Source: Rhizobium leguminosarum
Lineage (GTDB): Bacteria; Pseudomonadota; Alphaproteobacteria; Rhizobiales; Rhizobiaceae
DNA length: 64,000 bases
Assembly (NCBI RefSeq): GCF_001679785.1
Contig: NZ_CP016287.1
Span: forward strand, 434,001-498,000
Direction: 5' to 3'
The number at the start of each line of letters is the position of its first letter. The stretch's first letter is position 1. Under the pieces are notes generated by a model. It was not told the DNA's origin. It was given only the letters and a program-made list of their open reading frames with translations, and did not search any database. Positions 39,542-59,225 of this stretch are shown here, in pieces. A program made the position numbers and the translations under genes.

Positions 39542-39773
39542 AGCTTGTATTCCTTCACGTGTTCGGTGCGGTTATGCCGCACAGTGGATGGCGCCGGTCG
39601 CTCCCGCTGCCTCGCAATAGCTCTCAAGATTCGTGCCAAGCCGGCCGATTGAGCTGACGACAATTATTTGCTGCTATTTCAGCGACGTGGGCGGAAAATA
39701 CGGGATTGGGGGAGGAAGAATTCGTGTCGCGAAGCCGAAAAAGGTGACGACGATGTCGTAAGTTGATTGTCAT
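39542..39773 (-). promoter_or_regulatory. NifA/sigma-54 type leader, copy A (degenerate)
   Basis: Homologous over about 230 bases to the leaders at 44030 and 58998. The -24/-12 element TGGCACGAATCTTGA is present (39624-39638, minus strand). The upstream activator site is mutated: TTTCGGCTTCGCGACA instead of TGT-N10-ACA (39725-39740). It precedes the alpha-subunit remnant. Confidence 0.75.
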
Positions 39774-40323
39774 CAACAACTGACCCCACCCGAAACACTG
39801 GTAGGCCAGTGCTATCCCGCTAAACCATTCCTTGGGATAGGATCCCACTTGTCCACACGCTGTCTCCGGTGAGATCATCGACGGCGATCAAGCGCCGCGG
39901 CGAGCGATCCTATTCAGCAGGACGAGGTAACCTCGTGCCGCATCTGGTGCGCTGCATAACGCTGCCGTCCTGCTCCGCCGTCGGCTAAAAAATGTTTGGG
40001 CGGCCTCACCCATGCAAAGGACCGCGGCGTCGCAAATGCGCTTGCCGTTTCATAAATGTATCCGGCCCTGCGCGCGTGGAGTGCTGTTGCAGCAGGTCAT
40101 GATGACAGATCCGCACACGCCGTTCCCAATAGATAGTTCGGGCACGAAGCCGTTTTTTCACAGGACTTACGGCATGTTGAGCCATTTTACGCCGCGCCGC
40201 TACGTGGGGTCGCCTGCGCGCTTACCTTCGAACGGGAGAAGGATGCCGTGGTTCTCTTCCTCGAACTGCTTCGTCAAAAGCGGTGTCGCGGATACGGCAC
40301 CGTCTTGCAAAACAAACGGCTGA
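39774..40323. other. 550-bp stretch without a supported gene
   Basis: No frame here has a domain, a good ribosome site and a credible start together. It probably consists of rearranged relics between the broken module copy and the nuclease remnant. Confidence 0.35.
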
Positions 40324-40680
40324 ATGGGTAAGCCCACAACCACGATTCGAGATCGAGGACGCATATTGATCGAGACCTACGACAAGGCCCATGGCGAAAA
40401 GCTGCGCCTCTGGTTCCCATTCGCCGTCTCAGCTACCATCACCATCACGACGATTATCGCCAGGCCATACACGGCTGCCGCTGCCGAGCGCATAAAGCTT
40501 CCGACCGCCATCGAAAAATGTGAAGATGCCAACCGAACCACCTGTGTCGTCGATGGCGATACGCAGCACATTTTGCTGCCGAGAACCAGCCCGCCGTTCC
40601 AATGCCCCCGAGAGCTGAGGAAGGGCTTGCAGCGGAAGAGGTTATCGACGGAAACAGTTATGTCGTTGCCAAGACATTAG
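40324..40680 (+). pseudogene. thermonuclease-like (SNase) N-terminal remnant
   Basis: The frame has a hydrophobic segment (FAVSATITITTIIARPY) followed by EKCEDANRTTCVVDGDT. The last stretch resembles the start of plasmid-borne staphylococcal-nuclease-like proteins (TCVVDGDT, normally followed by metal- and DNA-binding residues). After GDT the similarity ends, so only the signal/anchor and first motif remain. Confidence 0.35.
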
Positions 40681-40925
40681 GTTTGCCGGGTGCCACGAGG
40701 GGCACCAACAATCTGACCTCCGTTATATCGGAATGGCAAGGTGAAGCGACTGAACGTGAAGCCATAAGGATAGCGGCGCGATTAAAGCCTACTGCAGAAC
40801 ACTTGCGCGACACGATTGATGCAAAGCTATCGCCCGCCGAAAGCGCGTCTGCGCGAAGCAGGATGAGTATCGCAGAGATCTTGAAGCAGACAGTCCAGGA
40901 TCCGACCAAGGTGGGCTTAGTATAA
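40602..40925 (+). CDS. hypothetical protein, unrecognised
   Basis: A 107-codon frame (LAAEEVIDGNSYVVAKTLGL ... RSRMSIAEILKQTVQDPTKV). The composition is hydrophilic and helical and free of the rare residues that mark shadow frames. The start is uncertain because the first 15 codons overlap the preceding remnant. No family recognised; it may be the 3' part of a broken gene. Confidence 0.35.
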   Translation: MPPRAEEGLAAEEVIDGNSYVVAKTLGLPGATRGTNNLTSVISEWQGEATEREAIRIAARLKPTAEHLRDTIDAKLSPAESASARSRMSIAEILKQTVQDPTKVGLV

Positions 40926-41033
40926 GGGTTGCACAAGCAGTGTCGAGTTCCGCATAACTCGGAAATGGCACCTTGAACCAGAGTTTACTGCACTTTTTCA
41001 GCCCACAAACACACACGATCAGTTGATGAGCAG

Positions 41034-41579
41034 TCAGAACAAATATCCCAACATATCGATTTGACCGATGTTCCAATTTTCGCCTCGCATCGGTTTGACA
41101 AGGAAGCACTGCGAAAGGTCGCGCTCGATGACAGCCACACTCTCGACGTCCTCGACGGCGAGCCATTTCGTCATCGCCGGATCAACGTGCCGAAAACCGT
41201 TCGCGATGTAGAGCGAGTCAACGTCTCCCATCAAGACTAGGAAATCGACATTGGATGCAGCCGCCAGACGTTCGACATGCTTTAATAGGTTTCCCGCGAC
41301 ACCGGCGCCGCGATGTGCCGGCGTAACGCAAAGATCAATGACTCCGAAGATCCTGACGATCTTTCCACCCGCCCTAATGACACGGTGATCGACACCTACT
41401 TGGCCAATGACGGTCTCGCCTTCAAACACCAGATAGCGAAAGTGCGGCAGTTGCTTGAAATAAGTCCTGCCCTCGAAGGTGTCGGGAAAACTCTCGTCCA
41501 GGAGAGCCGTAACCTGCGCCGTCGTTTGCGCGTCCATCTCGTATTCCGGCACAAATTTCACACCATAATCGTTTGCCAT
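41034..41579 (-). CDS. GNAT-family N-acetyltransferase
   Basis: A 181-residue acetyltransferase. The central region VIGQVGVDHRVIRAGGKIVR, then IFGVIDLCVTPAHRGAGVAG followed by NLLKHVERLA, carries the acetyl-CoA binding signature (R-G-A-G-V-A-G). It begins five bases after the ureohydrolase stop, so the two form an operon and are probably co-translated. The substrate may be an amine or amino acid derived from the ureohydrolase reaction (inference). The C-terminus is complete. Confidence 0.82.
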   Translation of the reverse strand: MANDYGVKFVPEYEMDAQTTAQVTALLDESFPDTFEGRTYFKQLPHFRYLVFEGETVIGQVGVDHRVIRAGGKIVRIFGVIDLCVTPAHRGAGVAGNLLKHVERLAAASNVDFLVLMGDVDSLYIANGFRHVDPAMTKWLAVEDVESVAVIERDLSQCFLVKPMRGENWNIGQIDMLGYLF

Positions 41580-41583
41580 TAGC

Positions 41584-42648
41584 CTACCCGCTCAAAGCTC
41601 CAAGAATGTCATTCGCTATCGCAGCCGAGGATGCACTCGTCCCTGGTTCAACAAGCGAGACACTGTCGATAGTCTCGCTTATCAGGATTTCCCTGATTGT
41701 TGTCATTAAGGTATCAACCGACCATCCCCCCGCAAGAGGACTGGATACGTCGGGAACTGCAGAAGGATCTAGAATGTCGAGGTCTACCGACAGATGGGTG
41801 TAACCTTTCGCTCTTGCGCCTTTTTCAACCGACGAATAGTCGCCAACCGAAGCCACGCGGAACCCTCGTCCCACTGCCTGCTTGACGGGCGCCGGGTTAT
41901 CTCGGCATCCTATCAAAATCGCCTCATCAATAGTGCCGCCGGCGAGAAGCCTCAGCAGAAAGTTTGAATGAGCGACATCGTCGGATAAAGCGTGGTCAAT
42001 CGAACCATACAGGTCATGGTGTGCGTCGATATGAATATACCTTACTTGCAGGCCGGTCGGTGTCGAGCGCCGCACAGCTTTCAAAAGTGCCCACGCGACC
42101 CGGTGATCGCCCCCCAGTATTCCCAAGCGCTTGCCCGCATCGAACGAAAGTGTGTGAACTCGATGTAGATATTGAAGGCACTTTTCGGTGGGATTCATAA
42201 ACGGGAGAACCCCAAGAACTGGAACGCCGGTTCCGGTCAATCCATCCAGCACGCGCGCAAGCCCGATCGCTGTCGAATGACGCATATTCGTCAAATGGCA
42301 GAGGGGAAGTCCGATCCAAACGGTGTCGATCGGCAATGGCCGGTCCAGCCAATCTAGCAAGGGGAACGCTGCAGCGTGGACCGGAAACTGCGCCTCATAA
42401 AACGTCCTGGCTACTAGCGGGAAAGATTCTCGCCCAAGTCCGAACGAAAGCACTCCCGCTCTGATCAACGCTTCGATTTTGTCCGGGGTTATGCCTGCCT
42501 CCCGCAGATCTCCGGTCGAGCACCATTCGCGCGAGAGACAGGCGAGCGGTTTCAATGCGTCCGGAAGTGGCTTTGACGGGACTCCCACGAGTTTAATTCT
42601 CTCAGTGGTCAGCCGTTCGACACGATCGTCCAATCGCAACTTGAACAT
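41584..42648 (-). CDS. ureohydrolase (arginase/agmatinase superfamily)
   Basis: A 354-residue enzyme with all three manganese-binding motifs: GGDHRVAW, IHIDAHHDLYG and LSVDLDILDPSAVPDVSSP. The superfamily hydrolyses guanidino groups (arginine, agmatine, formiminoglutamate, guanidinobutyrate). The first 120 residues (LSREWCSTGDLREAGITPDK) are not part of the usual catalytic core and make it longer than a standard arginase. The ATG at 42648 follows AAGGAGCG; the open frame upstream belongs to the IS3 region. It is the first gene of an operon with a GNAT acetyltransferase. The exact substrate cannot be told from sequence. Confidence 0.85.
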   Translation of the reverse strand: MFKLRLDDRVERLTTERIKLVGVPSKPLPDALKPLACLSREWCSTGDLREAGITPDKIEALIRAGVLSFGLGRESFPLVARTFYEAQFPVHAAAFPLLDWLDRPLPIDTVWIGLPLCHLTNMRHSTAIGLARVLDGLTGTGVPVLGVLPFMNPTEKCLQYLHRVHTLSFDAGKRLGILGGDHRVAWALLKAVRRSTPTGLQVRYIHIDAHHDLYGSIDHALSDDVAHSNFLLRLLAGGTIDEAILIGCRDNPAPVKQAVGRGFRVASVGDYSSVEKGARAKGYTHLSVDLDILDPSAVPDVSSPLAGGWSVDTLMTTIREILISETIDSVSLVEPGTSASSAAIANDILGALSG

Positions 42649-42775
42649 GCGGTTACGCTCCTTGCGAGGAGATGATTGAACGATACAGGCTGGACTCCGC
42701 TTCCAGAACCGAATGGCTTCCGCGCTCAGCGATGACGCCATCTGACAGGAGAAACACTGACCTTGCCCCCAAGTT

Positions 42776-43705
42776 TTATCCAGTTTTGAGTTCGCTCCAG
42801 CGGTTTTTGGTTGCTGTTGTTGGTTCGGTAGCGGCGGGTTGCGGTGCGGAGCCATTTCGGCTGCGCAGCACCGCATCACGTCGCGGGTTGAGTGTCTGAG
42901 CGAATTCGGCCGGTGTCAGCCAGCCAAGGCCTGAATGCGGGCGTTTATCGTTGTAATCGCTACGCCAGTTTGAAAGCGCAGACCGGGCGTGAGCAAGCGA
43001 CGAGAACAGAGTTTCATTCAAGAACTCGTCTCGCAGCCGCCCGTTGAAGCTTTCGATAAAAGCGTTCTGGATCGGCTTGCCAGGTGCAATGTAATGCCAG
43101 TCAACCTTGGTCCGGTCCGCCCATTGCAGGATCGCGTTGCTGGTGAACTCGCTGCCGTTGTCGCTGACGATCATCCTCGGCTTGCCGCGCTCCTCGATAA
43201 TCCGGTCAAGCTCCCGTGCGACGCGAAGACCGGAAAGCGATGTATCGGCGACGAGCGCCAGGCACTCCCTCGTGCAATCATCGACGACGGTCAGAATCCG
43301 CAACCTGCGCCCATCGGTGAACTGATCCGACACGAAGTCTAGCGACCAGCGATCATTGGCCACCATCGGCACCAGCATCGGCGCTCGCGTGCCTATCGCT
43401 CGCTTGCGACCGCCGCGCTTGCGCACCGTCAGTTTCTCCTCCCGATAGAGCCGGAAGAGCCTCTTGTGGTTCACGAGGTGACCCTCCCGCCGGAGCAGCA
43501 CATGAATGCGTCGATATCCGAAGCGGCGACGTTCATGCGCCAACGCCTTCATTCGCTCGCGAAGCTCATGATCATCGTCGCGCCTGGTCTCGTAACGGAC
43601 CGTCATTCGGCAAAAACCAATGGCTTTACACGCCCGCCGTTCGCTCATCTCATGATGGCTCATCAGATGCGCAACAGCTTTCCGCTTGGCCGCGGGCGTC
43701 ACCAC
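42776..43705 (-). CDS. IS3-family transposase OrfB
   Basis: A 309-residue rve-type transposase: [30 protein letters not shown], then the catalytic core [10 protein letters not shown] (D), [14 protein letters not shown] (D) and [19 protein letters not shown] (E). It overlaps orfA by seven bases, the usual arrangement for -1 frameshifting to an OrfAB product. The frame appears intact. Confidence 0.93.
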
Positions 43706-43965
43706 TTCTTTCCCAAAAGGTCTTTCAAGGCAGCATTGTCGAGCATCGCATCCGCCAGAAGCCGCTTCAGCTTCGTGTTCTCGTCCTCAAGCGTCTTCAG
43801 CCGCTTGGCCTCGGACACCTCCATGCCGCCGTACTTGGCCTTCCATTTATAGATGCTGGCATCGCTGACGCCATGCTTGCGGCAAAGCTCCGAGACCGGC
43901 GTGCCTGCCTCGTGCTCCTTCAATATGCCGATGATCTGTTCGTCTGTGAAACGATTGCGCTTCAT
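43699..43965 (-). CDS. IS3-family transposase OrfA
   Basis: An 88-residue DNA-binding protein: [39 protein letters not shown] (HTH) and a leucine-zipper-like tail [20 protein letters not shown]. It is upstream of and overlaps orfB. Typical of the IS407-like group of IS3. Confidence 0.93.
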
Positions 43966-44062
43966 CCTCTGGTCCTCTCAATGGGCCAGAGCTTACTTCA
44001 AAATGGATTATTTCAACGGGGCAAGGTCAATGACAATCAACTTACGACATCGTCGTCACCTT

Positions 44063-44078
44063 TGTCGGCTTCACGACA
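44063..44078 (+). promoter_or_regulatory. NifA-type upstream activator site (TGT-N10-ACA)
   Basis: TGTCGGCTTCACGACA matches the NifA consensus TGT-N10-ACA exactly. It lies about 80 bases upstream of the -24 element, within the usual range for NifA enhancers. The same site occurs in the leader at 59024. Confidence 0.7.
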
Positions 44079-44156
44079 CGCATTCGTCTTCGCCTCTTCC
44101 GCCCGCGTCGCTGAAATCGCAACAAATAAATTGTTCCTCAGCGCAATCGGCCGGAT

Positions 44157-44171
44157 TGGCACGAATCTTGA
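44157..44171 (+). promoter_or_regulatory. -24/-12 sigma-54 promoter
   Basis: TGGCACG-AATC-TTGA matches the RpoN consensus TGGCACG-N4-TTGC except for A at the last position. Spacing between GG and the -12 pair is correct. The sequence is identical in all three leaders. Confidence 0.75.
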
Positions 44172-44256
44172 GAGCTATTGCGAGGCAGCGGAACGGCCGC
44201 GGCATCCGCGTTGCGGGATAACCGCATTGGACCGAACGCGTGAAGGAGTACAGGCT

Positions 44257-44790
44257 ATGGCAGCACTACGTCGGAAGCGCAAGGGGTCCGACCTCCTTGT
44301 CCGGGGGCTTGAGGAGCACGGGGTCAAAGATATCTTCAGCATCCCCGGCGAGGAAACCCTCGACCTCCTCGAGTCGCTGCGCAACTCGAGGATCAAGTTC
44401 GTGACGACCCGCACCGAGTGGGGCGGGTCCCTCATGGCTGCGAACTATGGCCGCCTGACTGGCAGGCCCGGCGTCTCCTTGGCGACGGTGGGTCCAGGCG
44501 TACTCAACTTCAGCAACGGCGCTGGCTATGCCCTTGTCTGCGGGATGCCGCTGCTGATGATCGCCGGCCAGAAGGCGATCAAGAGCCGCGGCCAGGCGGG
44601 TTTTCAAAGGGTCGATGCCGTCGCGATGATGAAGCCCCTGACCAAGCTCGCAATACAAATCACAGCGACGGAGATGATCGTGCCGACGCTCAGGGAGGCA
44701 ATCCGCGTCACCCAGGAGGGAAAGCCTGGGCCAGTCTTTCTTGAGCTTCCGGAAGATATCGCGGCCGAAAAATGCGAGGAGGAGGTCTGA
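44257..44790 (+). CDS. split TPP-dependent enzyme, alpha (PYR-domain) subunit, copy 1
   Basis: A 177-residue protein equal to the N-terminal PYR domain of acetolactate-synthase-like enzymes: LLVRGLEEHGVKDIFSIPGE, then TRTEWGGSLMAANYGRLTG with the conserved glutamate that activates thiamine pyrophosphate, GPGVLNFSNGAGYAL, MIAGQ, and LREAIRVTQEGKPGPVFLEL ending PEDIAAEK. In ordinary family members this is fused to the middle and PP domains; here they are on a second gene. The ATG at 44257 follows GAAGGAG in the NifA/sigma-54 leader. Fold and cofactor are clear, but the substrate (pyruvate, another 2-oxo acid) is not. Confidence 0.85.
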   Translation: MAALRRKRKGSDLLVRGLEEHGVKDIFSIPGEETLDLLESLRNSRIKFVTTRTEWGGSLMAANYGRLTGRPGVSLATVGPGVLNFSNGAGYALVCGMPLLMIAGQKAIKSRGQAGFQRVDAVAMMKPLTKLAIQITATEMIVPTLREAIRVTQEGKPGPVFLELPEDIAAEKCEEEV

Positions 44791-44963
44791 TGATTGCGCC
44801 GCACCGGTTCGCACTACCGACAGCAAGCGATGCGGCCCTTGATCACGCCGCCGCCCTCATCACCGCAGCCAAACGTCCGCTTCTGACATTCGGGGCAGCC
44901 GCCTCGCGTCCCCGCCCTACAACGAATATCGCGCGGTTTGCAGTTCGCAGCAGCAGCAATTGA
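44790..44963 (+). pseudogene. truncated duplicate of the beta-subunit start
   Basis: An ATG overlapping the alpha stop begins a 57-codon frame (ASDAALDHAAALITAAKRPL, LTFGAAASR) that repeats the first segment of the following beta gene (AIDAALDRAAGLIIAAKRPL, VMFGAAASR) and then stops. It marks an internal tandem duplication at the alpha-beta junction, so beta1 now has a new start downstream. Confidence 0.65.
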
Positions 44964-44975
44964 AAGGTGACTGAC

Positions 44976-46142
44976 ATGGCAAAAATGCCGCGAAAGAACA
45001 CACACAACCCTGAGGGAGAAAAGCGAATGGTCAAGTGGTCCGACCTCCCGCACCAGTTGGAACTGCCGATAGCAATCGATGCGGCCCTCGATCGCGCCGC
45101 CGGCCTCATCATCGCAGCCAAACGTCCGCTTGTGATGTTCGGGGCCGCCGCCTCGCGGGCAGCCGCCTCGCATCCCGGCTTGACAACGGATATGGAGCAG
45201 TTTGTGAACCGCACCGGCATTCCGTTCTTTACCACTCAAATGGGCAAGGGCACCGTACCCGAGAGCTCCCACCTCTATATGGGCACGGCGGCGGTTTCCG
45301 AAGGCGACAATGTGCACGATGCCGTCGACAAGGCCGACCTGATCATCGCGATCGGTCACGACACGTGCGAAAAGCCACCGTTCATCATGTCTGAGGACGG
45401 CCCGAAGGTCATTCACATCGGAGATCAGTCGCCACCAGTCGAGGAGGTCTACTTCCCGCAATTCGAGCTCATCGGCGAGATCGGCCATTCGCTGAAGGCG
45501 CTGGCCGATCGCCTCGAGGGCAAGCTGCCAAATGCAGGCGCATTGCTGCCGCTCCGCAAGAATACCCTCACCCGGATTTCCGACGGCGCCGATGAAAAAT
45601 GCTCGTCGTTCACGCTGGAACAGGTAGTCCAAGTCGTGCGCATGGTCATGCCGAAAGACGGCATCGTTGCGCTCGACAACGGCTTCTACAAGCTCTCGTT
45701 CGCCCGCTACTACCGGACCTATGCCCCCAATACGCTGCTGCTCGACAACATGCTGGCGACCATGGGCGCGGGCCTGCCGTCGGCGATTGTTGCCTCGATG
45801 CTCTATCCCGGGCGCCGCGTCATGGCGGTCTGCGGCGACGGCGGCTTTCAGATGACCGGCCAGGAACTGATGACGGCCGTCGAACAAAAGCTCAACCTCG
45901 TCGTCCTCATCTTGGACAACGGCGGCTGGGGCATGATCGAAGCGAAGCAAACCGCCAGAGGTTTCCCGAAATTCGGCGTCGACTTCCGCAATCCGGATTT
46001 CGTGAAATGGGCCGAAGCCTGTGGCGCCAACGGCACGCGGGTCGAAACGCTGGACGATCTGGCGCGGGCGCTGGAAGCCGCTTTCGAAGGCGGCGGCGTC
46101 CATGTTGTCGAAGTGCGGATCGATTATGCGGAGAACAAGTGA
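44976..46142 (+). CDS. split TPP-dependent enzyme, beta (middle + PP domain) subunit, copy 1
   Basis: About 388 residues: a TPP-enzyme middle domain (AKRPLVMFGAAASR ... FFTTQMGKGTVPESSHLYMG, LIIAIGHDTCEKPPFIM) and a PP domain with the TPP/magnesium motif VCGDGGFQMTGQELMTAVEQ followed after the usual spacing by LDNGGWGMIEAKQ. Together with alpha it makes one complete acetolactate-synthase-like enzyme of about 560 residues. Starts at 44976 (after AAAGGTG) or 45027 (after GAGGGAG) are both possible. It lies downstream of a truncated duplicate of its own 5' end. From about 45800 to the end it is nearly identical to beta2 although the first halves have diverged. Confidence 0.85.
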   Translation: MAKMPRKNTHNPEGEKRMVKWSDLPHQLELPIAIDAALDRAAGLIIAAKRPLVMFGAAASRAAASHPGLTTDMEQFVNRTGIPFFTTQMGKGTVPESSHLYMGTAAVSEGDNVHDAVDKADLIIAIGHDTCEKPPFIMSEDGPKVIHIGDQSPPVEEVYFPQFELIGEIGHSLKALADRLEGKLPNAGALLPLRKNTLTRISDGADEKCSSFTLEQVVQVVRMVMPKDGIVALDNGFYKLSFARYYRTYAPNTLLLDNMLATMGAGLPSAIVASMLYPGRRVMAVCGDGGFQMTGQELMTAVEQKLNLVVLILDNGGWGMIEAKQTARGFPKFGVDFRNPDFVKWAEACGANGTRVETLDDLARALEAAFEGGGVHVVEVRIDYAENK

Positions 46143-46275
46143 GTGTTCATCGACGAGCTGCGCTCGCGCAAGGCGTAACCGGGATAAACCGCCCAGGAGG
46201 TCGACAGCAATGAGTCAACTTTTCGGAGCGTGCGGCAAACCCTGCCGTCCGAAAACGCCAACAGAGGATCAGAAC

Positions 46276-47451
46276 ATGAAGTCCTTTACTTTCCAGACTC
46301 CGTCCAACATCATTATCGAGGCAGGCGCGTCCAGCAAGATCGGCGGGCTCCTCAAGGGCTACAAGGCCACCCATGTGCTGCTCGTCACCGACGAGGGCGT
46401 ACGGGCGGCCGGGCTGACGCGCAATGCGGAAGCGGCGATTGCCGAAGCCGGCATCGCGCTCACCGTGTTCGACGGCGTGGTCGTCGACGCGCCGTCGGAT
46501 GTCATCGAAGCGGCAGCAGAAATCTGCCGCGAGTGCGGCGTCGACGCTGTCGTGGCGATCGGCGGCGGCAGCGCGCTGGATACGGCAAAGCTCGTCGCCT
46601 ATCTCGCCAAAACCCCGGACAAGCTTGATGCTATCTATGGTGTCGACCTTGCCACCGGCGACCGACTGCCGCTGCTGCTGGTGCCGACCACGGCGGGCAC
46701 CGGATCGGAAGTGACGCCGATCTCCATCGTTAAGACGCCGAACAACGAGAAGAAGGCGGTTATCTCGCCGCGCCTCCTCCCGGACTGGGCGATCCTCGAT
46801 CCCGAACTGACGCTCGGTCTGCCGCCGCACCTCACCGCTCAGACGGGCATCGACGCCATGGCGCACGCGATCGAGGCCTATACCGGCAAGATCAAGAAGA
46901 ACCCGATCTCCGACCAGTTCGCGCTGAAGGCGCTGGCGCTGCTGTCGGCTAATCTCAGGAAAGTGTGCGCGGACGGCTCTGACCTCGAAGCGCGCTCGGA
47001 AATGCTGCTCGGCTCCATGCTGGCCGGCATGGCGTTTGCCAACTCGCCGGTTGCCGCGGTGCATGCGCTCGCCTATCCGATCGGCGAGATCTTCGATGTC
47101 GGGCACGGCCACTCCGTTGCGCTGGTCCTGCCCTACGTGTTGGAATTCAACCGCCCGGCAGCCGAAGCGCTCTATGCCGAGCTCTCCAACGTTATCCAGC
47201 CCGGCTATCGCCACCAGTCCGATGCGGTGGACGCTGCGGCCTTCATCGCCGAGATCGAGGCGATCTGCCGAGACTGCGGGGTGCCCGGCTCGCTTTCGGC
47301 GGTTGGAATCGGCGAAGGCGATCTTTCCAAGCTGGCGGAGGGTGCGATGAAGCACGAGGAGCGCCTACTGGTCAACAATCCGCGCGAGCTCGACTACGAC
47401 CAGGTTCGGGAGATCTATGCCAAAGCGCTTGCGGGAGTGAGCAGGCTATGA
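46276..47451 (+). CDS. iron-containing alcohol dehydrogenase, copy 1
   Basis: A 391-residue group III dehydrogenase. The NAD(P) site region is VVAIGGGSALDTAKLVA with PTTAGTGSEVTP. Iron ligands fall in TGIDAMAHAIEAYTG (Asp, His), AAVHALAYPIG (His) and VGHGHSVALVLP (His). Such enzymes interconvert aldehydes or semialdehydes and alcohols. An in-frame ATG at 46210 with AGGAGG upstream would add 22 residues, but copy 2 lacks it, so 46276 is preferred. Its stop overlaps the phaE start (ATGA), which ties it to polymer synthesis. Context suggests it reduces the aldehyde released by the TPP enzyme, perhaps a semialdehyde giving a hydroxy acid. Confidence 0.9.
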   Translation: MKSFTFQTPSNIIIEAGASSKIGGLLKGYKATHVLLVTDEGVRAAGLTRNAEAAIAEAGIALTVFDGVVVDAPSDVIEAAAEICRECGVDAVVAIGGGSALDTAKLVAYLAKTPDKLDAIYGVDLATGDRLPLLLVPTTAGTGSEVTPISIVKTPNNEKKAVISPRLLPDWAILDPELTLGLPPHLTAQTGIDAMAHAIEAYTGKIKKNPISDQFALKALALLSANLRKVCADGSDLEARSEMLLGSMLAGMAFANSPVAAVHALAYPIGEIFDVGHGHSVALVLPYVLEFNRPAAEALYAELSNVIQPGYRHQSDAVDAAAFIAEIEAICRDCGVPGSLSAVGIGEGDLSKLAEGAMKHEERLLVNNPRELDYDQVREIYAKALAGVSRL

Positions 47452-48149
47452 CCCCGAGCTCGGACGACCAACCGGTATTCTCGCAGATGCTGCTGCGCAT
47501 GTCGGAAATGTGGCGGAGCAACATGGAGCAGTCAGGGGAGGTTGGAAAATTGTGGTTCAACTCGATGATGCCCTTTTTCACCATGCGCGCGGCTGACAGC
47601 AGCCTGTTTGCCGCCGCACAGGGCGGCGAGATCTTGAAAACTATCAAGCGCATGGTGGAAGGCCCGCACCTTGCCGACATGTGCAACCTCGACCGGCAGG
47701 TCTACGCGCTGATGGCTGCCTGGATGGACGTGGGCCAGCGCATGGCGGCCTATCACGCCATAGCCTCCGTGCCGTGGAGCAAGGCCTATGAACGCTACAG
47801 CGCAACGCTCGCCGGCACGAAGGAAGGAGACGCCAAGGATTTCGGCTGGCGCAAGGCTTTCGACAAGTGGAGGGACATTGCGAACAAGGAACTGATCAGC
47901 AACCTGCGCTCTAAGGATTTCCTCGCCGCGCAGCGCGAATTGCTGCTCGCCGCGCTGGACCTGCGCACCTGCCAGCAGCAAATGACCGACAGCGTCGCGA
48001 AGCTGTTAGGCGTTCCGAGCCAACACGACTTCGACGAGCTGACGCGGCAGTTCACGGAACTCAGGCGGGAGGTGCGCGCCAGCATAAGGGCACAGCGCGA
48101 TGAAGTCGAAGGTGCACGCGGTGTCGCCACACAACCAGGAAAGGGATAA
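47448..48149 (+). CDS. phaE: class III PHA synthase subunit PhaE
   Basis: A 233-residue protein with PhaE-like features: VFSQMLLRMSEMWRSNMEQS near the start, WFNSMMPFF, LAAQRELLLAALDLRTCQQQ in the centre, and FDELTRQFTELRREVRASIR with a coiled-coil tendency near the end. PhaE has no catalytic residues and forms the active complex with PhaC. The start overlaps the dehydrogenase stop and phaC begins three bases after its stop, so synthesis of the three is coupled. It acts at the polymer granule surface. Confidence 0.8.
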   Translation: MTPSSDDQPVFSQMLLRMSEMWRSNMEQSGEVGKLWFNSMMPFFTMRAADSSLFAAAQGGEILKTIKRMVEGPHLADMCNLDRQVYALMAAWMDVGQRMAAYHAIASVPWSKAYERYSATLAGTKEGDAKDFGWRKAFDKWRDIANKELISNLRSKDFLAAQRELLLAALDLRTCQQQMTDSVAKLLGVPSQHDFDELTRQFTELRREVRASIRAQRDEVEGARGVATQPGKG

Positions 48150-48152
48150 GCG

Positions 48153-49262
48153 ATGACCGAACCCCGCAAAACCGCCTTCAACAGCATCCTGAAGGATTTC
48201 GCCGAGAATGTCGGCAAGTTTTACAAGGGCGCGGACGTGCTCGCCGGCATCCGCGACGAGGATGTCGATGTCGGAACAACCCCGAAGACGCTCGTCATGC
48301 GCCGCGACAAGGTGAAGCTGTTTCGCTACGAGCCGACGGTCAAGCGCACCGTTGAGACGCCGGTCCTCATCGTCTATAGCCTGGTCGGCCGCTACACTAT
48401 CGCGGACCTCCAGCCCGACCGCTCGCTGGTGCGTAGCCTGCTCGCCGAGGGCGTCAACCTTTGGCTGATCGAATGGGGCAAGCTCGGCCGCGCCGAGCGC
48501 TGGCTGACTATGGACGACTATGTCGACGACTATATCCACGAGGCGGTGCACCGGATCTGCCGCGAGACGGGCCATGACAAGGTGACGCTGCTCGGCATCT
48601 GCGAGGGTGGTGTCTTCACCACCTGCTATGCGGCGCTCCACCCGGAGAAGGTCAAGAACCTGGTCCTGACCATGACGCCGATCGACTTCCACGCCGATAT
48701 CGACGACCCGGAGCCCAGTCACGGCCTCCTCAACATCTGGACGCGCGCGCTTGCGCCCGAGGATATCGACCGCATGGTCGATGCGCTGGGCGTCATCCCC
48801 GGCGAACTTATGAGCTTGATCTTCTCGCTCATGACGCCAATGCAAGCGCTGACTAAGTACAATGTCGAACTCTTCGACATCGCCGGTGACAAGGACCGGC
48901 TGATGAACTTCCTGCGCATGGAGAAATGGCTGGCCGATCGACAGGAACACCCAGGCGCAGCCGGCCGGCAATGGCTGAAGGAGCTCTATCACGAGAACCG
49001 CCTGGTCGAGGGCAGGTTCGAGCTGTTGGGCCGCATCGTCGACCTCCGCGCGATCGACGTGCCCGTGCTCAACATCTTCGGCCTGGACGACCATATCATT
49101 CCGGCGACCTGTTCCAAGGCGCTCGGCGGTCAGATCGGCGGCACAGACTATACGGAGGTTCCGTTCCAGGGCATGGGGCATGTCGGCGTGCTCGTTTCGA
49201 GCAAGTCGCAGGGCAAGCTCGCCAAAAGCATAGTTGAATGGCTCCAGCCACGGGACGGGTAG
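48153..49262 (+). CDS. phaC: class III PHA synthase catalytic subunit PhaC
   Basis: A 369-residue alpha/beta hydrolase-fold polymerase of the class III size. The lipase-like box is GICEG with catalytic Cys150. The other triad members are Asp in FGLDDHIIP (about 312/313) and His343 in GMGHVGVL. LIVYSLVGRYTIADLQPDRS and VNLWLIEWGKLGRAERWLTM are typical of the class. With PhaE it polymerises hydroxyacyl-CoA into polyhydroxyalkanoate on granules. It ends the NifA-type-leader operon 44257-49262. A piece of CoA-transferase sequence follows directly, which suggests that gene once came next. Confidence 0.93.
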   Translation: MTEPRKTAFNSILKDFAENVGKFYKGADVLAGIRDEDVDVGTTPKTLVMRRDKVKLFRYEPTVKRTVETPVLIVYSLVGRYTIADLQPDRSLVRSLLAEGVNLWLIEWGKLGRAERWLTMDDYVDDYIHEAVHRICRETGHDKVTLLGICEGGVFTTCYAALHPEKVKNLVLTMTPIDFHADIDDPEPSHGLLNIWTRALAPEDIDRMVDALGVIPGELMSLIFSLMTPMQALTKYNVELFDIAGDKDRLMNFLRMEKWLADRQEHPGAAGRQWLKELYHENRLVEGRFELLGRIVDLRAIDVPVLNIFGLDDHIIPATCSKALGGQIGGTDYTEVPFQGMGHVGVLVSSKSQGKLAKSIVEWLQPRDG

Positions 49263-49282: not shown

Positions 49283-49355
49283 GATTTGCTCCCCGCCGAA
49301 GCCGTCACGATCATCCGTTCGGGCGATACAGTCGCCTTTTCCGCTTCGAGGCGGG
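49283..49355 (+). pseudogene. CoA-transferase gene fragment
   Basis: About 73 bases closely match the 5' part of the CoA-transferase gene (59287-59360): both contain GCCGAAGCCGTC, GTTCGGGCGATACAGT-like sequence and TTTTCCG. No start or frame continues. It marks where a full CoA-transferase used to follow phaC. Confidence 0.7.
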
Positions 49356-50587: not shown

Positions 50588-51206
50588 CACCGGCCCTGCC
50601 ATGACGCTGCCCAAGAAAGCGACCGACGAAAGCTGGCCGGCGATGAAGATCTGGGCATGACCGCTATGTTCGCCATCGGCGCCCGGTCCGGCATCGTCCC
50701 GGCAGCGGCACGGACCTAGCCGCGCCGGTTTCGCGGAGGACGAGACCTGGATCTTGCGCGCGAGCGGCGCAATGTGCTGTCCCAGCCCTTTTCCGGATTC
50801 AGGCGGCTGGCGCGGATGTCGAAGGCACGGGTTGTGCGCTTCGAGATCGTCCGCCGCACTGCAACGATCGTCATGTTGTGACAAGAATCTGGATCGTTTC
50901 AATTCGCGAGTCCACGTCTTAGGCTAATTAGGGACAAGCGGGGCCGCACGATCCGTGGCCAGAAGGGCCATACGGGGTACATCGAAGGTCGTGGCACGCT
51001 GGGTCGAGTGGTCCCTGTGCGGAGGCCCCGCCGGCATGGAGGATTGTTCGTCCCGCCGAACACGAGCCCAAGCCGGACCCCGGAGCAGATCGCCCAAAAA
51101 AATCTTGTTCCGCCCTAAGAGGAATTGAGAACAAGAATTCCCTGACGAAAGTATGCAGCCGTAAGTTTCCTGGCGCGGCAAAGTGCTTGTTGACGGCACA
51201 GGACAT
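50588..51206. other. 620-bp stretch without a recognised gene
   Basis: No frame combines a start, ribosome site and recognisable domain. It lies upstream of repA, where repABC plasmids carry promoter and regulatory sequences. One spaced palindrome, GAATT-GAGAACAA-GAATTC, is seen near 51122. Confidence 0.35.
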
Positions 51207-52520
51207 ATGCTAAATCGTGACAGCCTAAACACATCGTATACGAGAGAAACCTCCACCGGGAAACTTATGCCGCATTCTGAGAATCCAACCTTTCAGACGG
51301 AGAAAGCGTCGGAGCGCATTTCGCGCCATGCCAATGAAATTGCGGCTCGCCTAACCAAGCGGGGGGCAGTTCCTAATTTCGGAGAACCCGACGACAGGAC
51401 CCTTCGCTCGTTCTCCTTGGGCGAGGTTGCCGAGATTCTCGGCGTGTCGGGCAGTTATTTGCGCCAGTTGTCAATTGATGGGCTGGGGCCAACACCGGAA
51501 CTAGGGACCGCAGGACGGCGCTCCTATACGCTTCGACAGATCAACGAACTCCGTGCCTATCTCGCTTCGGCCCGTCAGAAAGAGGCTTTGAAGTTTTGCC
51601 CGCGCAGGCGCGAGGGTGAGAAACTCCAGATCATCTCAGTAGCCGGCTCCGCAAGCACCACCACATCGCTCTATCTGGCTCAGGGCCTTGCACTTCAAGG
51701 ATACCGCGTTCTCGCCATAGACCTCGATCCGAATGGCTCATTGTCGAAAATGTTCGGTTATTATTTTCCGGATATCGGTTTTCCCGACCACTACGTGAGC
51801 ATGTATGGCGCTTTAAGCTATGATGACGATCGGTCCAGTATGAGCTCTGTAATCCGACCCACCCATTTTGATGGTCTTGATCTTGTGCCGGGTACTTGCG
51901 AGCTCGAAATATTCGAACGGGAAAGTACGAAGCGCTTCCATAGTGAGGACTTGAGAATCGCAGACGTTAGCACCAAAATGGTGTCTGCGCTCAAAGAAGT
52001 CGAGGCGAATTACGACGTCGTCGTTATCCGCTGTGGAGGTGGAAGCTTTCTGACCGCAGGTGCGTATGAAGCAGCGACCGGCGTGCTGTTGACGGTCCGC
52101 CCTGAATGGCCTGAGATCACGTCAATGACCATGTCCCTCAGCGTTTTATCGCATTTCGTCTCCTTGATCGAAGAGGCTGGAAGGTCGGTAAATCATGATT
52201 TCACCAAATTCTTGGTGACAAGGCACAGCCCGCGTGACGTCTCGCAGCAGGAGGCAGTCGCACTACTGCGGGACTCCCTGGGGCATGATCTGTTGACTGC
52301 GACCGTCTGGGAATCGGACGCGATCCGAGACGCGGGGGTCAAAAAGCGATCGTTGTATGAGTTGGTAGCCGGGGCGGTAGGCCGATCGGCGTACGAGCAA
52401 GCGATGGAAACACTGAATTCCACGAATGCGGAGGTAATGGACATCATATCCGAGGTTTGGGGCCGTCCCCCGATGTATGTGATGAGGGCTTCGCGCACTG
52501 CAGGTAAGGCGAGTTCCTAA
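51207..52520 (+). CDS. repA: RepA-like partition ATPase (ParA family), Walker A degenerate
   Basis: A 437-residue RepA of the repABC type. The N-terminal HTH region is FSLGEVAEILGVSGSYLRQL; then SLYLAQGLALQGYRVLAIDL with DPNGSLSKMFGY gives the ParA fold; later RHSPRDVSQQEAVALLRDSL and YELVAGAVGRSAYEQAME are also typical. The deviant Walker A, normally KGGSGKTTT, reads VAGSASTTT, so both signature lysines are absent and ATP hydrolysis is unlikely. No repB or repC follows. Starts at 51207 and 51267 (MPHSEN) are both possible; the second fits family length better. It may be a relic or may act as a DNA-binding regulator of the family. Confidence 0.82.
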   Translation: MLNRDSLNTSYTRETSTGKLMPHSENPTFQTEKASERISRHANEIAARLTKRGAVPNFGEPDDRTLRSFSLGEVAEILGVSGSYLRQLSIDGLGPTPELGTAGRRSYTLRQINELRAYLASARQKEALKFCPRRREGEKLQIISVAGSASTTTSLYLAQGLALQGYRVLAIDLDPNGSLSKMFGYYFPDIGFPDHYVSMYGALSYDDDRSSMSSVIRPTHFDGLDLVPGTCELEIFERESTKRFHSEDLRIADVSTKMVSALKEVEANYDVVVIRCGGGSFLTAGAYEAATGVLLTVRPEWPEITSMTMSLSVLSHFVSLIEEAGRSVNHDFTKFLVTRHSPRDVSQQEAVALLRDSLGHDLLTATVWESDAIRDAGVKKRSLYELVAGAVGRSAYEQAMETLNSTNAEVMDIISEVWGRPPMYVMRASRTAGKASS

Positions 52521-55690: not shown

Positions 55691-55988
55691 GTCACAGATT
55701 CCGTCAGCCGCAGTTTGAGTCGTTTCATTGCTAACCTTTTGCAGTCCGAAAGGCGTCCCGGTCGGAGGCTAGTCCACGCCTGCCCGCAGAGCCGAGGAAG
55801 TTTGCTTCGATGCGCCCCACTGAGATGAGCAACAAAAAACTCGATGCGGCTGGCGAAAGGCCTGCTCGATGGACCGGTGGGTCTGTCGGCGCGAAAAACG
55901 GCGTTTGGCCATTGACCAACAAAGCCGCCTTGGCTATAGACGCTTTTATAACGTCAGGTGGTATTAATTCCGTCAGAGAGGCTCCATC
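55691..55988. other. upstream region of the second TPP-enzyme operon
   Basis: About 300 bases. Near 55730 the sequence TGCTAACCTTTTGCAGTCCG resembles the 3' end of IS6 copy 1, hinting at a relic. I looked for the NifA site and -24/-12 element of the three leaders and did not find them, so this operon copy appears to have a different promoter. Confidence 0.4.
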
Positions 55989-56552
55989 TTGTCCATTAGT
56001 AATTCATCTTACGCGAAGAGCGAACAGCGCAAGGTCAAGGGTTCCGACCGAGTTGTCGCGGTCCTTGAGAAAGTGGGCGTCGAGCGCATTTACGGCGTCC
56101 CCGGCGAGGAAATCCTCGACATCATGGAGTCGCTGCGCAAGTCGAAGAAGATCAAGTTCGTGCCGACCCGTACCGAGTGGGGTGCGGCCCTCATGGCCGC
56201 CACCGAGGGCCGGCTCACCGGCCGCGCAGGCGTCAGCCTCGCCACCTGCGGCCCGGGCGCACTTAACTTCCCCAACGGCGCTGAGTATGCGCATCTCGGC
56301 GGATTTCCGCTGGTGATGATCGCCGGCCAGAAGCCGATCAACAGCAGCCTCCATGGGCACTTTCAGGTCAGCCCCCTCGTCTCCGTGATGGAGGGGCTCA
56401 CCAAGTCCGCAGTGCAGCTCGGGTCGGTGCAAATGATCCGGCCAGTCCTCACTGAGGCGTTCCGCATCGCTCAAGAGGAAAAGCAAGGCCCAGTGTCTGT
56501 TGTAATACCGGAAGACATTGCGGCCGAAGATGGTGAGGAGGATGCACTATGA
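55989..56552 (+). CDS. split TPP-dependent enzyme, alpha (PYR-domain) subunit, copy 2
   Basis: A 187-residue PYR-domain protein: RVVAVLEKVGVERIYGVPGE, TRTEWGAALMAATEGRLTG with the conserved catalytic Glu, GPGALNFPNGAEYAHLGGFP, MIAGQKPINS, TEAFRIAQEEKQGPVSVVIP and EDIAAED. It is homologous to copy 1 but clearly diverged. The best start is a TTG at 55989 with AGAGAGG upstream. Its stop overlaps the beta2 start (ATGA), so the two subunits are translationally coupled, which supports a working two-subunit enzyme. Confidence 0.85.
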   Translation: MSISNSSYAKSEQRKVKGSDRVVAVLEKVGVERIYGVPGEEILDIMESLRKSKKIKFVPTRTEWGAALMAATEGRLTGRAGVSLATCGPGALNFPNGAEYAHLGGFPLVMIAGQKPINSSLHGHFQVSPLVSVMEGLTKSAVQLGSVQMIRPVLTEAFRIAQEEKQGPVSVVIPEDIAAEDGEEDAL

Positions 56553-57658
56553 CTACGAAGACCCTCGATCGCGCGGTTGAAATGATCCTTGCGGCCCAGT
56601 GTCCGCTGATCATGGTGGGCGGGGCGGCAAGCCGCCTCGACCAGCACTCGATCGCCCAAATCCGCGACTTCGTGCAACGCACCCGCATTCCCTTCTTCGA
56701 CACGCAAATGGGCAAGGGCGTCGTGGCGGAGGACTCCGACCTCTATATGGGCACGGCGGCGCTTTCTAAAGGCGACCATGTCCACGCGGTCATCGAGGAG
56801 GCCGACCTGATCATTCCGATCGGCCACGACACGTGCGAAAAGCCTCCGTTCATCATGTCTGAGGGCGGCCCGAAGGTCATTCACATCGCACATCAGACTG
56901 CGACCTTCACGCAGGCCTATTGGCCGCAGCTCGAGGTCATCGGCGAGATCGGCGCTTCAGTCGCGGCGCTGGCGGATCGCCTCGACGGCAAGCTGCCCAA
57001 TGCCGGCGGATTGCTGCCGCTGCGCGAGAGGAGCCTCGCCCTGATTGGCGAGGGTGCCGATGATAAAAGTTGGCCGGTCACGCTGGATCGCATAGTGCAC
57101 GTTGTTCGCAAGGTCATGCCTGAAGGCAGCATTGTTACGCTCGACAATGGCCTTTACAAGATCCCGTTCGCCCGGAATTATCGGACCAATCACCCCAATA
57201 CGCTACTGCTCGACAACACGCTCGCGACCATGGGCGCCGGCGTGCCCTCAGCGATCGTGGCGGCGATGCTGAATCCCGGGCTCTGTGTGATGGCGGTCTG
57301 CGGCGACGGCGGCTTTCAGATGACCGGCCAGGAACTGATGACGGCCGTCGAACAAAAGCTCAACCTCGTCGTCCTGATCTTGGACAACGGCGGCTGGGGC
57401 ATGATCGAAGCGAAGCAAACCGCCAAAGGTTTCCCGAAATTCGGCGTCGACTTCCGCAATCCGGATTTCGTGAAACTGGCCGAAGCCTGTGGCGCCAAGG
57501 GCACACGGGTTGAAACGCTGGACGATCTGATGCCTGCGCTTGAAGCCGCTCTCAAAGGCGGCGGGGTGCGTGTGGTCGCAGTGCCGGTCGATGATTCAAA
57601 GTACAAGCGACTGCTCGGCGGACTTCGCTCGCCCAAGGCGAAACCGCCGAGCGCCTGA
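56549..57658 (+). CDS. split TPP-dependent enzyme, beta (middle + PP domain) subunit, copy 2
   Basis: A 369-residue protein: AAQCPLIMVGGAASRLDQHS, FFDTQMGKGVVAEDSDLYMG, LIIPIGHDTCEKPPFIMSEG and the TPP-binding VCGDGGFQMTGQELMTAVEQ with LDNGGWGMIEAKQ. It starts inside the alpha2 stop (ATGA). Unlike copy 1 it has no duplicated 5' segment. The last third is almost identical to beta1, the rest is not, pointing to gene conversion. The alcohol dehydrogenase copy 2 follows after about 130 bases. Confidence 0.87.
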   Translation: MTTKTLDRAVEMILAAQCPLIMVGGAASRLDQHSIAQIRDFVQRTRIPFFDTQMGKGVVAEDSDLYMGTAALSKGDHVHAVIEEADLIIPIGHDTCEKPPFIMSEGGPKVIHIAHQTATFTQAYWPQLEVIGEIGASVAALADRLDGKLPNAGGLLPLRERSLALIGEGADDKSWPVTLDRIVHVVRKVMPEGSIVTLDNGLYKIPFARNYRTNHPNTLLLDNTLATMGAGVPSAIVAAMLNPGLCVMAVCGDGGFQMTGQELMTAVEQKLNLVVLILDNGGWGMIEAKQTAKGFPKFGVDFRNPDFVKLAEACGAKGTRVETLDDLMPALEAALKGGGVRVVAVPVDDSKYKRLLGGLRSPKAKPPSA

Positions 57659-57786
57659 GCAGGCCCGGAATGAACCGCCTCGGGGAGTGCCGGGGCGGTC
57701 GACAGCAAGGATCGGCTTTTCAGAGGGGGCGGGCAGGCGGCAGGCCGCCCTGCCTCCCGAGAGAGCCAAACAAAGGGACCAACCAC

Positions 57787-58962
57787 ATGAAAGCCTTTAC
57801 TTTCCAGACCCCGTCAAACATCTTTTTCGGGGCAGGCGCGTCCAGCAAGATCGGCGAGCTCCTCAAGGGCTACAAGGCCGCCCATGTGCTGCTCGTCACC
57901 GACGAGAAGGTGCGGGCGGCCGGGCTGACGCGCAATGCGGAAGCGGCGATTGCCGAAGCCGGCATCGCGCTCACCGTGTTCGACGGCGTGGTCGTCGACG
58001 CACCGTCGCATGTCATCGAAGCGGCGGCAGAAATCTGCCGCGAGTGCGGCGTCGACGCTGTCGCGGCGATCGGCGGCGGCAGCGTACTGGATACGGCAAA
58101 GCTCGTCGCCTATCTCGCCAAAACCCCAGACAAGCTTGATGTTATCTATGGCGTCGGCCGTGCCACCGGCGACCGCCTGCCGCTGCTGCTGGTGCCGACC
58201 ACGGCGGGCACCGGATCGGAAGTGACGTTGACCTCCATCGTTAAGACGCCGAACAACGAGAAGAAGGCGGTGATCTCGCCGCGCCTCCTCCCGGACTGGG
58301 CGATCCTCGATCCCCAACTGACGCTCGGCCTGCCGCCGCACCTCACCGCCCAGACGGGCATTGACGCCATGGCGCACGCGATCGAGGCCTATACCGGTAA
58401 GATCAAGAAGAACCCGATCTCCGACCAGTTCGCGCTGAAGGCGCTGGCGCTGCTGTCGGCCAATCTCAGGAAAGTGTACACGGACGGCTCGGACCTCGAA
58501 GCGCGCTCGGACATGCTGTTCGGCTCCATGCTGGCCGGCATGGCGTTTGCCAACTCGCCGGTTGCCGCGGTGCATGCGCTCGCCTATCCGATCGGCGAGA
58601 TCTTCGATGTCGGGCACGGCCACTCCGTTGCGCTGGTCCTGCCCTACGTGTTGGAATTCAACCGCCCGGCAGCCGAAGCGCTCTATGCCGAGCTCTCCAA
58701 CGTTATCCAGCCCGGCTATCGCCACCAGTCCGATGCGGTGGACGCTGCGGCCTTCATCGCCGAGATCGAGGCGATCTGCCGAGACTGCGGGGTGCCCGGC
58801 TCGCTTTCGGCGGTTGGAATCGGCGAAGGCGATCTTTCCAAGCTGGCGGAGGGTGCGATGAAGCACGAGGAGCGCCTACTGGTCAACAATCCGCGCGAGC
58901 TCGACTACGACCAGGTTCGGGAGATCTATGCCAAAGCGCTTGCGGGAGTGAGCCGGCCATGA
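57787..58962 (+). CDS. iron-containing alcohol dehydrogenase, copy 2
   Basis: A 391-residue enzyme nearly identical to copy 1 (46276-47451), with the same nucleotide (AAIGGGSVLDTAKLVA) and iron-ligand regions (TGIDAMAHAIEAYTG, AAVHALAYPIG, VGHGHSVALVLP). The last 400 bases appear identical between copies at the DNA level. ATG at 57787 after AAAGGGACC. The stop overlaps a start codon that belongs to a phaE remnant, showing that a phaE gene once followed here as well. Confidence 0.9.
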   Translation: MKAFTFQTPSNIFFGAGASSKIGELLKGYKAAHVLLVTDEKVRAAGLTRNAEAAIAEAGIALTVFDGVVVDAPSHVIEAAAEICRECGVDAVAAIGGGSVLDTAKLVAYLAKTPDKLDVIYGVGRATGDRLPLLLVPTTAGTGSEVTLTSIVKTPNNEKKAVISPRLLPDWAILDPQLTLGLPPHLTAQTGIDAMAHAIEAYTGKIKKNPISDQFALKALALLSANLRKVYTDGSDLEARSDMLFGSMLAGMAFANSPVAAVHALAYPIGEIFDVGHGHSVALVLPYVLEFNRPAAEALYAELSNVIQPGYRHQSDAVDAAAFIAEIEAICRDCGVPGSLSAVGIGEGDLSKLAEGAMKHEERLLVNNPRELDYDQVREIYAKALAGVSRP

Positions 58963-58989
58963 CCCCAAGCTCGGACGACCAACTGGAAT
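58959..58989 (+). pseudogene. phaE 5' remnant
   Basis: ATGACCCCAAGCTCGGACGA and the following bases encode MTPSSDDQ, the start of the phaE at 47448 (MTPSSDDQPVF). After about ten codons homology ends and the NifA-type leader begins. This is a deletion junction inside a duplicated operon. Confidence 0.75.
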
Positions 58990-59023
58990 CTCCACATTCA
59001 ACTTACGACATCGTCGTGACCTT

Positions 59024-59039
59024 TGTCGGCTTCGCGACA
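59024..59039 (+). promoter_or_regulatory. NifA-type upstream activator site (TGT-N10-ACA)
   Basis: TGTCGGCTTCGCGACA, one base different from the site at 44063 and an exact TGT-N10-ACA. It lies about 88 bases upstream of the -24 element. Confidence 0.7.
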
Positions 59040-59126
59040 CCCATTCCTCTTCGCCTAATCCCGTATTTCCGCCCACGTAGCAGAAATAGCAGCAAATAAT
59101 TGTTCGTCAGCTCAATCCGCCGGCCT

Positions 59127-59141
59127 GGCACGAATCTTGAG
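59127..59141 (+). promoter_or_regulatory. -24/-12 sigma-54 promoter
   Basis: TGGCACG-AATC-TTGA, identical to the elements at 44157 and 39624 (minus strand). It is 84 bases upstream of the CoA-transferase start. Confidence 0.75.
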
Positions 59142-59225
59142 AGCTATTGGGAGGCAGCGGAACGGCCGCCGCATCCACATTGCGGGTTAACCGCATTGCT
59201 TCGAACACATGAAGGAACGCCAAGC

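Follow-up and report, generated by a model that had tools for sequence, protein, structure and literature searches.

Introduction

That nif promoters are reiterated in fast-growing rhizobia has been known since the 1980s. The Sinorhizobium meliloti promoters P1, P2 and P3 were reportedly described as such by Better et al. in 1983, and Schofield and Watson, as well as Watson and Schofield, are said to have reported repeated nifH promoter sequences in R. trifolii in 1985. In this study, we analyzed a 64,000-nucleotide stretch of Rhizobium leguminosarum DNA (contig NZ_CP016287.1, positions 434,001 to 498,000; the whole stretch is referred to as the window), in which three leaders of about 230 bases, copies A, B and C, accompany a polymer-storage module. 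Our preferred reading, which we hold to be very probable as a whole, is that these leaders are copied nifH promoters and would place a set of genes, including the polymer module, under the control of NifA and RpoN in nitrogen-fixing bacteroids.

The closest described relative of the module comes from S. meliloti HM006; the statements on it, and on other work cited by PMC number, are drawn from parts of those papers. In a 2025 preprint (PMC12636752), the homologous genes of HM006 were required for polymer granules in bacteroids, GhbD reduced succinate semialdehyde to gamma-hydroxybutyrate, and poly-4-hydroxybutyrate was proposed as the product of the operon. By RNA-seq, several genes of the clusters ranked within the top 50 of pSymA for expression in symbiosis, a GUS (beta-glucuronidase) fusion was on in bacteroids, like nifH, and the accessory polymer pathway can make the symbiosis collapse on one host. 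The authors compared the operon with R. johnstonii 3841; the sections of the preprint drawn on here name no promoter type for it. The dehydrogenase and polyhydroxyalkanoate (PHA) synthase genes of 3841 correlated with gamma-hydroxybutyrate use among 72 isolates (PMC4313370), and the pRL10 synthase of that strain was active in bacteroids (PMC5852556).

Results

The leader family

The initial annotation of the window, made from the sequence, had placed the leader at three sites. All three were located there and could be aligned with one another over their full length:

39542..39773, minus strand: leader copy A, a decayed nifH leader; -24/-12-type element TGGCACGAATCTTGAG at 39638-39623; mutated upstream site TTT-N10-ACA, TTTCGGCTTCGCGACA, at 39740-39725
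39356..39541, minus strand: dead 61-codon scrap of a thiamine-pyrophosphate (TPP) enzyme gene behind copy A
44030..44256, plus strand: leader copy B; upstream activator sequence (UAS) at 44063-44078; TGGCACGAATCTTGAG at 44157-44172
58998..59225, plus strand: leader copy C; UAS at 59024-59039; TGGCACGAATCTTGAG at 59126-59141

As the annotation had described, the three copies share the -24/-12-type element, B and C have an exact TGT-N10-ACA (78 and 86 bases 5' of the -24 element, respectively), and in copy A this site is mutated and the gene behind it is dead.

The search for further copies that the annotation had proposed was performed on the whole genome with leader B as the query; 40 of 58 candidates were scored, and the leader count is therefore a lower bound. 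The 28 matches at E values up to 1 comprised at least 17 leader copies, three matches that were probably insertion-sequence ends only, and eight that were short and weak. The leader copies were found on three plasmid contigs, with five on C2, nine on C5 and three on C7. The local cassette of three copies is thus real in its three members, but belongs to a family spread over all three contigs. Leader B was 99% identical to C7:227850-228066 over 217 bases (BLAST, own genome).

One copy (C5:465195-465385) directly precedes an intact nifH gene (C5:465424-466248), and the leaders are therefore the nifH leader. From these alignments, it is near certain that A, B and C arose by segmental copying of the nifH promoter region of this strain, in part together with the first nifH codons. 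The first 27-31 nifH codons were present downstream of the copies C5:432844 and C5:444396, and the NifH match of copy B was limited to the first five residues, MAALR. The ends of pairwise homology varied: the 5' limits lay anywhere between about -26 and -288 and the 3' limits between about +34 and +208, or further if the downstream genes were related. The lack of fixed ends favors segmental copying and disfavors a transposon.

The following were found behind the leaders of this genome:

nifH, one copy
a divergent Orn/Lys/Arg-decarboxylase-like gene
two glutamate-dehydrogenase-like genes (GDHa and GDHb)
behind two tandem leaders, a gene with a weak Nif11 domain (22.4 bits in Pfam against a cut-off of 23.8, and unmatched in NCBIfam) and, downstream of it, genes for a PoyD-type epimerase and a C-methyltransferase, both radical-SAM enzymes
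an uncharacterised 161-codon gene, and a damaged relative
three times, an uncharacterised gene with a signal-peptide-like start (judged by eye), with an NPP1-family gene after one
a CoA-transferase scrap, then an open reading frame (ORF) with FAD- and AMP-binding domains
the operons of window copies B and C
dead copies: A, C5:112571 and C5:516664

The NPP1-family (necrosis-inducing-like) gene lies behind leader C2:390012 (L017:3598-4347, minus strand). At GDHb, a 47-codon ORF with a NifH start has its stop codon overlapping the start codon of the glutamate dehydrogenase gene (ATGA), which suggests translational coupling; the same 47-codon ORF also precedes GDHa (the two loci are L015, C5:432844, and L014, C5:444396).

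The NifH-headed CoA-transferase and later copies

The gene behind copy C begins with nifH codons:

59226..60890, plus strand: CoA-transferase, GhbT-like, with a NifH-derived head
59226..59282, plus strand: its first 19 codons, nifH-derived (MVAPRQIASYGKGRIDKST versus NifH MAALRQIAFYGKGGIGKST, 14/19 identical)

Family and structure matches of this protein started at residue 14-24 and covered essentially the rest of it. The same kind of in-frame head was found in R. lentis, R. sullae and 3841, with D in place of the second P-loop G of NifH in all of these, and it was also readable at the gene starts in genomes G045 and G053. Two S. meliloti homologues lacked the head and began directly with the enzyme. 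The homologue of R. ruizarguesonis TP33, which was more distant (75% identity, match starting at residue 20), had no head and no leader element within 800 bases upstream; the fusion is therefore not genus-wide.

TPP-enzyme and Nif11-like genes of 3841 (taken to be G039, whose coordinates match), G045 and G053 are preceded by leaders in which NifH(1-20) runs on into KIVSAA, the start of the CoA-transferase; these leaders therefore descend from the CoA-transferase copy. The GDHa locus has a leader with the nifH start and the first 26 codons of the GDHb gene. Judged from these junctions, later-generation leaders carry the start of the gene from which they were previously copied. Two ORFs on pRL10 of 3841 (L037:18664-18813 and 20237-20386), annotated as hypothetical proteins (WP_155251706.1), match by place and length the 49-codon ORFs of such leaders that combine the NifH start and the CoA-transferase start.

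The polymer module

PHA synthase, CoA-transferase and phasin genes had been named behind the leaders, and family searches matched PhaE, PhaC, CoA-transferase and phasin. In addition to the CoA-transferase gene, the following features were identified:

44257..44790, plus strand: ORF with the N-terminal domain of a TPP enzyme (acetolactate-synthase-like)
44799-44908 and 45048-45157: partial duplication at the junction of the TPP-enzyme ORFs
44967..46142, plus strand: ORF with the middle and C-terminal domains of the TPP enzyme
46021..47451, plus strand: iron-containing alcohol dehydrogenase ORF, GhbD-like; the true start, judged from the second copy, is probably near 46276
47448..48149, plus strand: PhaE, class III PHA synthase subunit (Pfam above cut-off; TIGR01834 50 bits, below the cut-off of 155)
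48153..49262, plus strand: PhaC, class III PHA synthase subunit (TIGR01836 365.4 bits, cut-off 365.3)
49293..49343, plus strand: remnant of a CoA-transferase 5' end behind phaC, 88% identical to 59296-59346
55989..57658, plus strand: second TPP enzyme, in two ORFs (55989-56552 and 56549-57658) with a four-base overlap
57670..58962, plus strand: second iron-containing alcohol dehydrogenase, likely start 57787
60935..61360, plus strand: phasin (Pfam 25.6 bits, cut-off 24.9; NCBIfam 24.1, below the cut-off of 30.2)

The dehydrogenase, PhaE, PhaC and CoA-transferase of the window shared 65-80% protein identity with those of HM006. A polyhydroxyalkanoate module is thus present as annotated, but its product is more likely to be poly-4-hydroxybutyrate than ordinary polyhydroxybutyrate (PMC12636752; PMC4313370).

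In both window copies (44257-46142 and 55989-57658), a break between the N-terminal and middle domains divides the TPP enzyme, and the stop and start codons touch or overlap there. The same split was seen by eye in S. meliloti RCAM1115 (L133:2397-4048), and a single ORF was present in S. meliloti ml21 (L132). The split gene may encode a real two-subunit enzyme and not be a pseudogene. A ParA/MinD-like ATPase gene (51183-52520), annotated as RepA in several relatives, lies between the two polymer operons, and a gene for an omptin-family outer-membrane protease (PF01278) was found in this nodule bacterium at 34504-35637 of the window.

Motif scans and conservation

Scanned across the window with up to three mismatches, the -24/-12 consensus gave 99 matches versus 111 expected, which is chance level, and TGT-N10-ACA gave 12 versus 6.8 expected, which is weak alone. 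The combined scan for an upstream site and a promoter, which the initial annotation had proposed for the replicon, was run on the whole genome; TGTC-N9-ACA plus TGGCAC at the leader spacing gave 20 matches, compared to 3 when the pattern was reversed; leader copies made up 13 of the 20. Two further matches to this pattern, C5:432275 (minus strand) and C5:491410, are similar to each other, lie outside the leader family and are possibly a second repeated nif-type promoter. A scan of the genome for the canonical TGGCAC-N5-TTGC was uninformative (23 matches versus 17 for the reversed control); one of the matches was the leader C5:210794.

A survey of 120 genomes found a leader match in 10, the strain's own included, a figure that does not measure how often genomes with nifH lack copies. 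All candidates were scored in a renewed search of the nine relatives with a match, and an alignment was made of 59 copies from the ten genomes (17 own and 42 from the relatives), with none dropped. TGGC(A/G)C-N5-TTG was present in all 59 aligned copies, the element having also served as the alignment anchor. The exact TGT-N10-ACA was present in 48 of the 59 copies and in 13 of the 17 own copies. Mean conservation was 96% for the six fixed bases of the UAS and 79% for the ten bases between them, compared to 84% from the UAS to -24, 89% behind the promoter and 74% before the UAS. The UAS register ranked second of 106 upstream of -24, the first being its neighbor one base off.

In the strain's own genome, 14 copies are followed by an open gene or unit and three are dead; the exact UAS was found in 13 of the former and in none of the latter (one-sided P 0.006). 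The open class includes both tandem Nif11 leaders and one damaged gene; because the classes were set post hoc and the copies are related, the P value is supportive only.

Leaders and the polymer operon in Sinorhizobium

In S. meliloti ml21, the genes for the TPP enzyme, dehydrogenase, phaE, phaC, CoA-transferase and acs lie in one gene run. Upstream of it are a UAS, the canonical -24/-12 element TGGCACGACTTTTGC and an ORF starting with MAALGHVAFYGKRGTGKSTT, which is a nifH start. When one plasmid of RCAM1115 was searched with its own polymer-operon leader, 11 matches were obtained, counting the query; they hold eight distinct -24/-12 elements, all eight with TTGC. Among the eight are the elements at nifH, on the fixA side, at the polymer operon and at two genes resembling Nif11.

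A leader tree was built from 26 places (27 rows, of which two represent one site, 178980 on the minus strand). The leaders of Rhizobium and of Sinorhizobium/Ensifer separated with a support of 1.0, whatever gene lay behind them, and the nifH leaders of the two genera were only 50% identical. The own PHA (C2) and Nif11 (C7) leaders grouped together (0.966), and the PHA and Nif11 leaders of 3841 grouped with the PHA leader of G045 (0.968). Since the leaders group by genus, the same targets bear genus-specific nifH leaders, a pattern that fits double capture as well as homogenisation within each genus.

The regulators nifA and rpoN

A nifA gene above the family cut-off was found at C5:425711, together with two rpoN genes, one at C1:4504986-4506476 and one at C5:486574-488061, the latter on the nifH contig. 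In G045 and G063, an upstream site and a TGGCACG-N4-TTGAA element were present at a second-rpoN locus.

The -12 base of the nifH leader was A in the own genome, G045, G026, G063, G061, G011 and G070, and T in G039, G053 and G068; the three T leaders form one clade. A second rpoN was present in all seven A genomes (in G011 as fragments only) and in G068, and a single rpoN in G039 and G053. A link between the -12 base and the second rpoN is suggestive and unclean, with the second rpoN also present in G068, which has T, and it is not claimed.

Discussion

Because the leaders are the nifH leader, control by NifA and RpoN is the natural reading, and copies B and C likely act as NifA-RpoN promoters. 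The nitrogen-fixation switch proposed in the initial annotation thus gains the identity of the leaders and the presence of nifA and two rpoN genes, with the dependence itself inferred from them. A piece of the nifH promoter, partly with the first codons, has been copied many times on R. leguminosarum plasmids, and we propose the following role for it. An intact copy would bring a NifA upstream site about 100 bases 5' of a nifH-type sigma-54 promoter with A at -12, as well as the nifH ribosome-binding region, and the gene behind it would fall under NifA-RpoN control. Copy B would drive the TPP enzyme, alcohol dehydrogenase, phaE and phaC, and copy C the NifH-headed CoA-transferase and the phasin; copy A is dead. 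Poly-4-hydroxybutyrate would then be made in nitrogen-fixing bacteroids, its genes being on together with nitrogen fixation in the root nodule.

Several observations weigh against this proposal. The spacing of A, B and C is that of a sigma-54 promoter element, with GG at -24, TTG at -12 and ten bases from GG to the -12 dinucleotide, but this dinucleotide is GA and not the GC of the consensus (TGGCACG-N4-TTGCW). Among the own copies, A stands at -12 in 16 of 17, the nifH copy included, and among all 59 copies A was found in 51, T in 6 and C in 2. With GA at -12 and window scans near chance, the case for promoters is one of homology and not of motif. R. etli, R. leguminosarum and M. loti have a nifH promoter in which A replaces C at -12, a base found there in 9 of 186 potential RpoN promoters (PMC3538637). 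The exact UAS is missing in 11 of the 59 copies, some of them before open genes (the own divergent decarboxylase; TPP and Nif11-like genes in G045). The promoter and the bases just downstream are conserved as well as or better than the UAS, and at least ten registers over these regions score above the UAS register.

Similar difficulties come from Sinorhizobium. The RCAM1115 polymer-operon leader has an intact -24/-12 element and no exact UAS within 170 bases. An intact nifH leader was expected before the HM006 operon; the leader adjoining it has GG-N9-GC instead of GG-N10-GC, a spacer one base short, a second leader upstream has lost its -24/-12 part, and no exact UAS was found in L172:4500-5450. 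The promoter measured in HM006 may be another one, elsewhere, and a damaged leader despite expression in bacteroids counts against the simple account in that strain.

Of the other explanations, it is possible, though we doubt it, that the operon already had a nifH-type leader before Rhizobium and Sinorhizobium split, and that gene conversion with the resident nifH leader, and not independent capture in the two genera, homogenised the copies of each genus. In Rhizobium and Sinorhizobium alike, nifH leaders stand before the operon and before Nif11-like genes, but the leaders group by genus, and the own PHA and Nif11 leaders, 99% identical over 217 bases, group together, as do those of 3841 with the G045 PHA leader. 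However, fresh copying from locus to locus yields the same pattern, and the NifH head is absent from the two S. meliloti proteins and TP33; that capture, at least, therefore belongs to one Rhizobium lineage.

It is improbable that the leaders are inert nifH remnants left by rearrangements, without a role in transcription, and that the genes, if expressed, use other promoters. The authors of PMC6969944 view nifH fragments in these strains as non-functional, which stands against our proposal, and copies A, C5:112571 and C5:516664 are clearly decayed. The HM006 operon is expressed behind a damaged leader (PMC12636752), and the TP33 CoA-transferase, with neither head nor leader element in 800 bases, indicates that the gene can do without. 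Inert remnants are nevertheless hard to reconcile with UAS halves better conserved than the bases between them and the stretch to -24, with an own UAS that the three dead copies have lost and 13 of the 14 others retain, or with a NifH head that is in frame in the window gene, in its R. sullae, R. lentis and 3841 counterparts and at the gene starts of G045 and G053.

The last explanation, a small mobile element resembling a miniature inverted-repeat transposable element that carries the promoter and spread by transposition, is very improbable and already disfavored: the many copies on several plasmids and the 40 bases directly 5' of leader B (43990..44029, plus strand; identical to places on C1, C3 and C4), which are probably, as we infer, the end of an insertion sequence with its integrase-core ORF at 42776-43705, would suit it, but shared fixed ends were not found, the homology limits vary between pairs, and the source gene, nifH, is identified.

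With copied, working nifH promoters as the preferred reading, a broader proposal stands at slightly less than an even chance: the nifH promoter may be a self-multiplying cassette with which plasmids build and rebuild the bacteroid regulon by pasting the promoter and first codons of nifH before new genes, recopying from those sites and homogenising the copies within a genome, with genus-specific leaders in Rhizobium and Sinorhizobium. If true, its targets would include polymer synthesis, glutamate dehydrogenase, Nif11 peptides and a decarboxylase, and it would supply the missing control step for a poly-4-hydroxybutyrate operon able to ruin the symbiosis. The leaders offer a concrete, testable answer to how the accessory polymer pathway is turned on in bacteroids, and nifH fragments published as inert are reinterpreted as likely working promoters. 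They also suggest a route of regulon growth, in which a strong master promoter is copied with its first codons and the copies are recopied; the NifH-headed CoA-transferase and the second-generation leaders form a readable record of the order of events.

The initial annotation had called a duplicated promoter cassette spread over several operons unusual. Several operons do bear the leader, but duplicated nif promoters are an old observation, and the phenomenon has long been known in kind; what goes beyond the work that we found in print is its extent, together with the NifH-headed enzyme, the copy lineages and the polymer link. Literature searches found no account of a CoA-transferase with a NifH head, of leaders of a second generation or of the polymer operon being controlled by NifA, a weak negative given that most subscription journals were not covered.

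The common feature with the reiterated nif promoters is, as reported, the presence of nifH leader copies before other transcription units on symbiotic plasmids. Here, in contrast, there are at least 17 copies on three plasmid contigs, a fusion protein headed by NifH, second-generation copies in which the start of the earlier host gene is retained, and a connection with the proposed poly-4-hydroxybutyrate operon. The nifH promoter of R. leguminosarum, R. etli and M. loti has the same variant with A at -12, here multiplied so that it occurs in 16 of the 17 own copies and in 51 of all 59. Compared to ghbD-phaE-phaC2-ghbT-acs on pSymA of HM006, the homologous genes of the window are split over two leaders and have extra copies. 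The class III PHA synthase on pRL10 of 3841 (pRL100104/105) represents the same genes with the same kind of leader; 3841 has six leader copies, whereas the window strain has at least 17.

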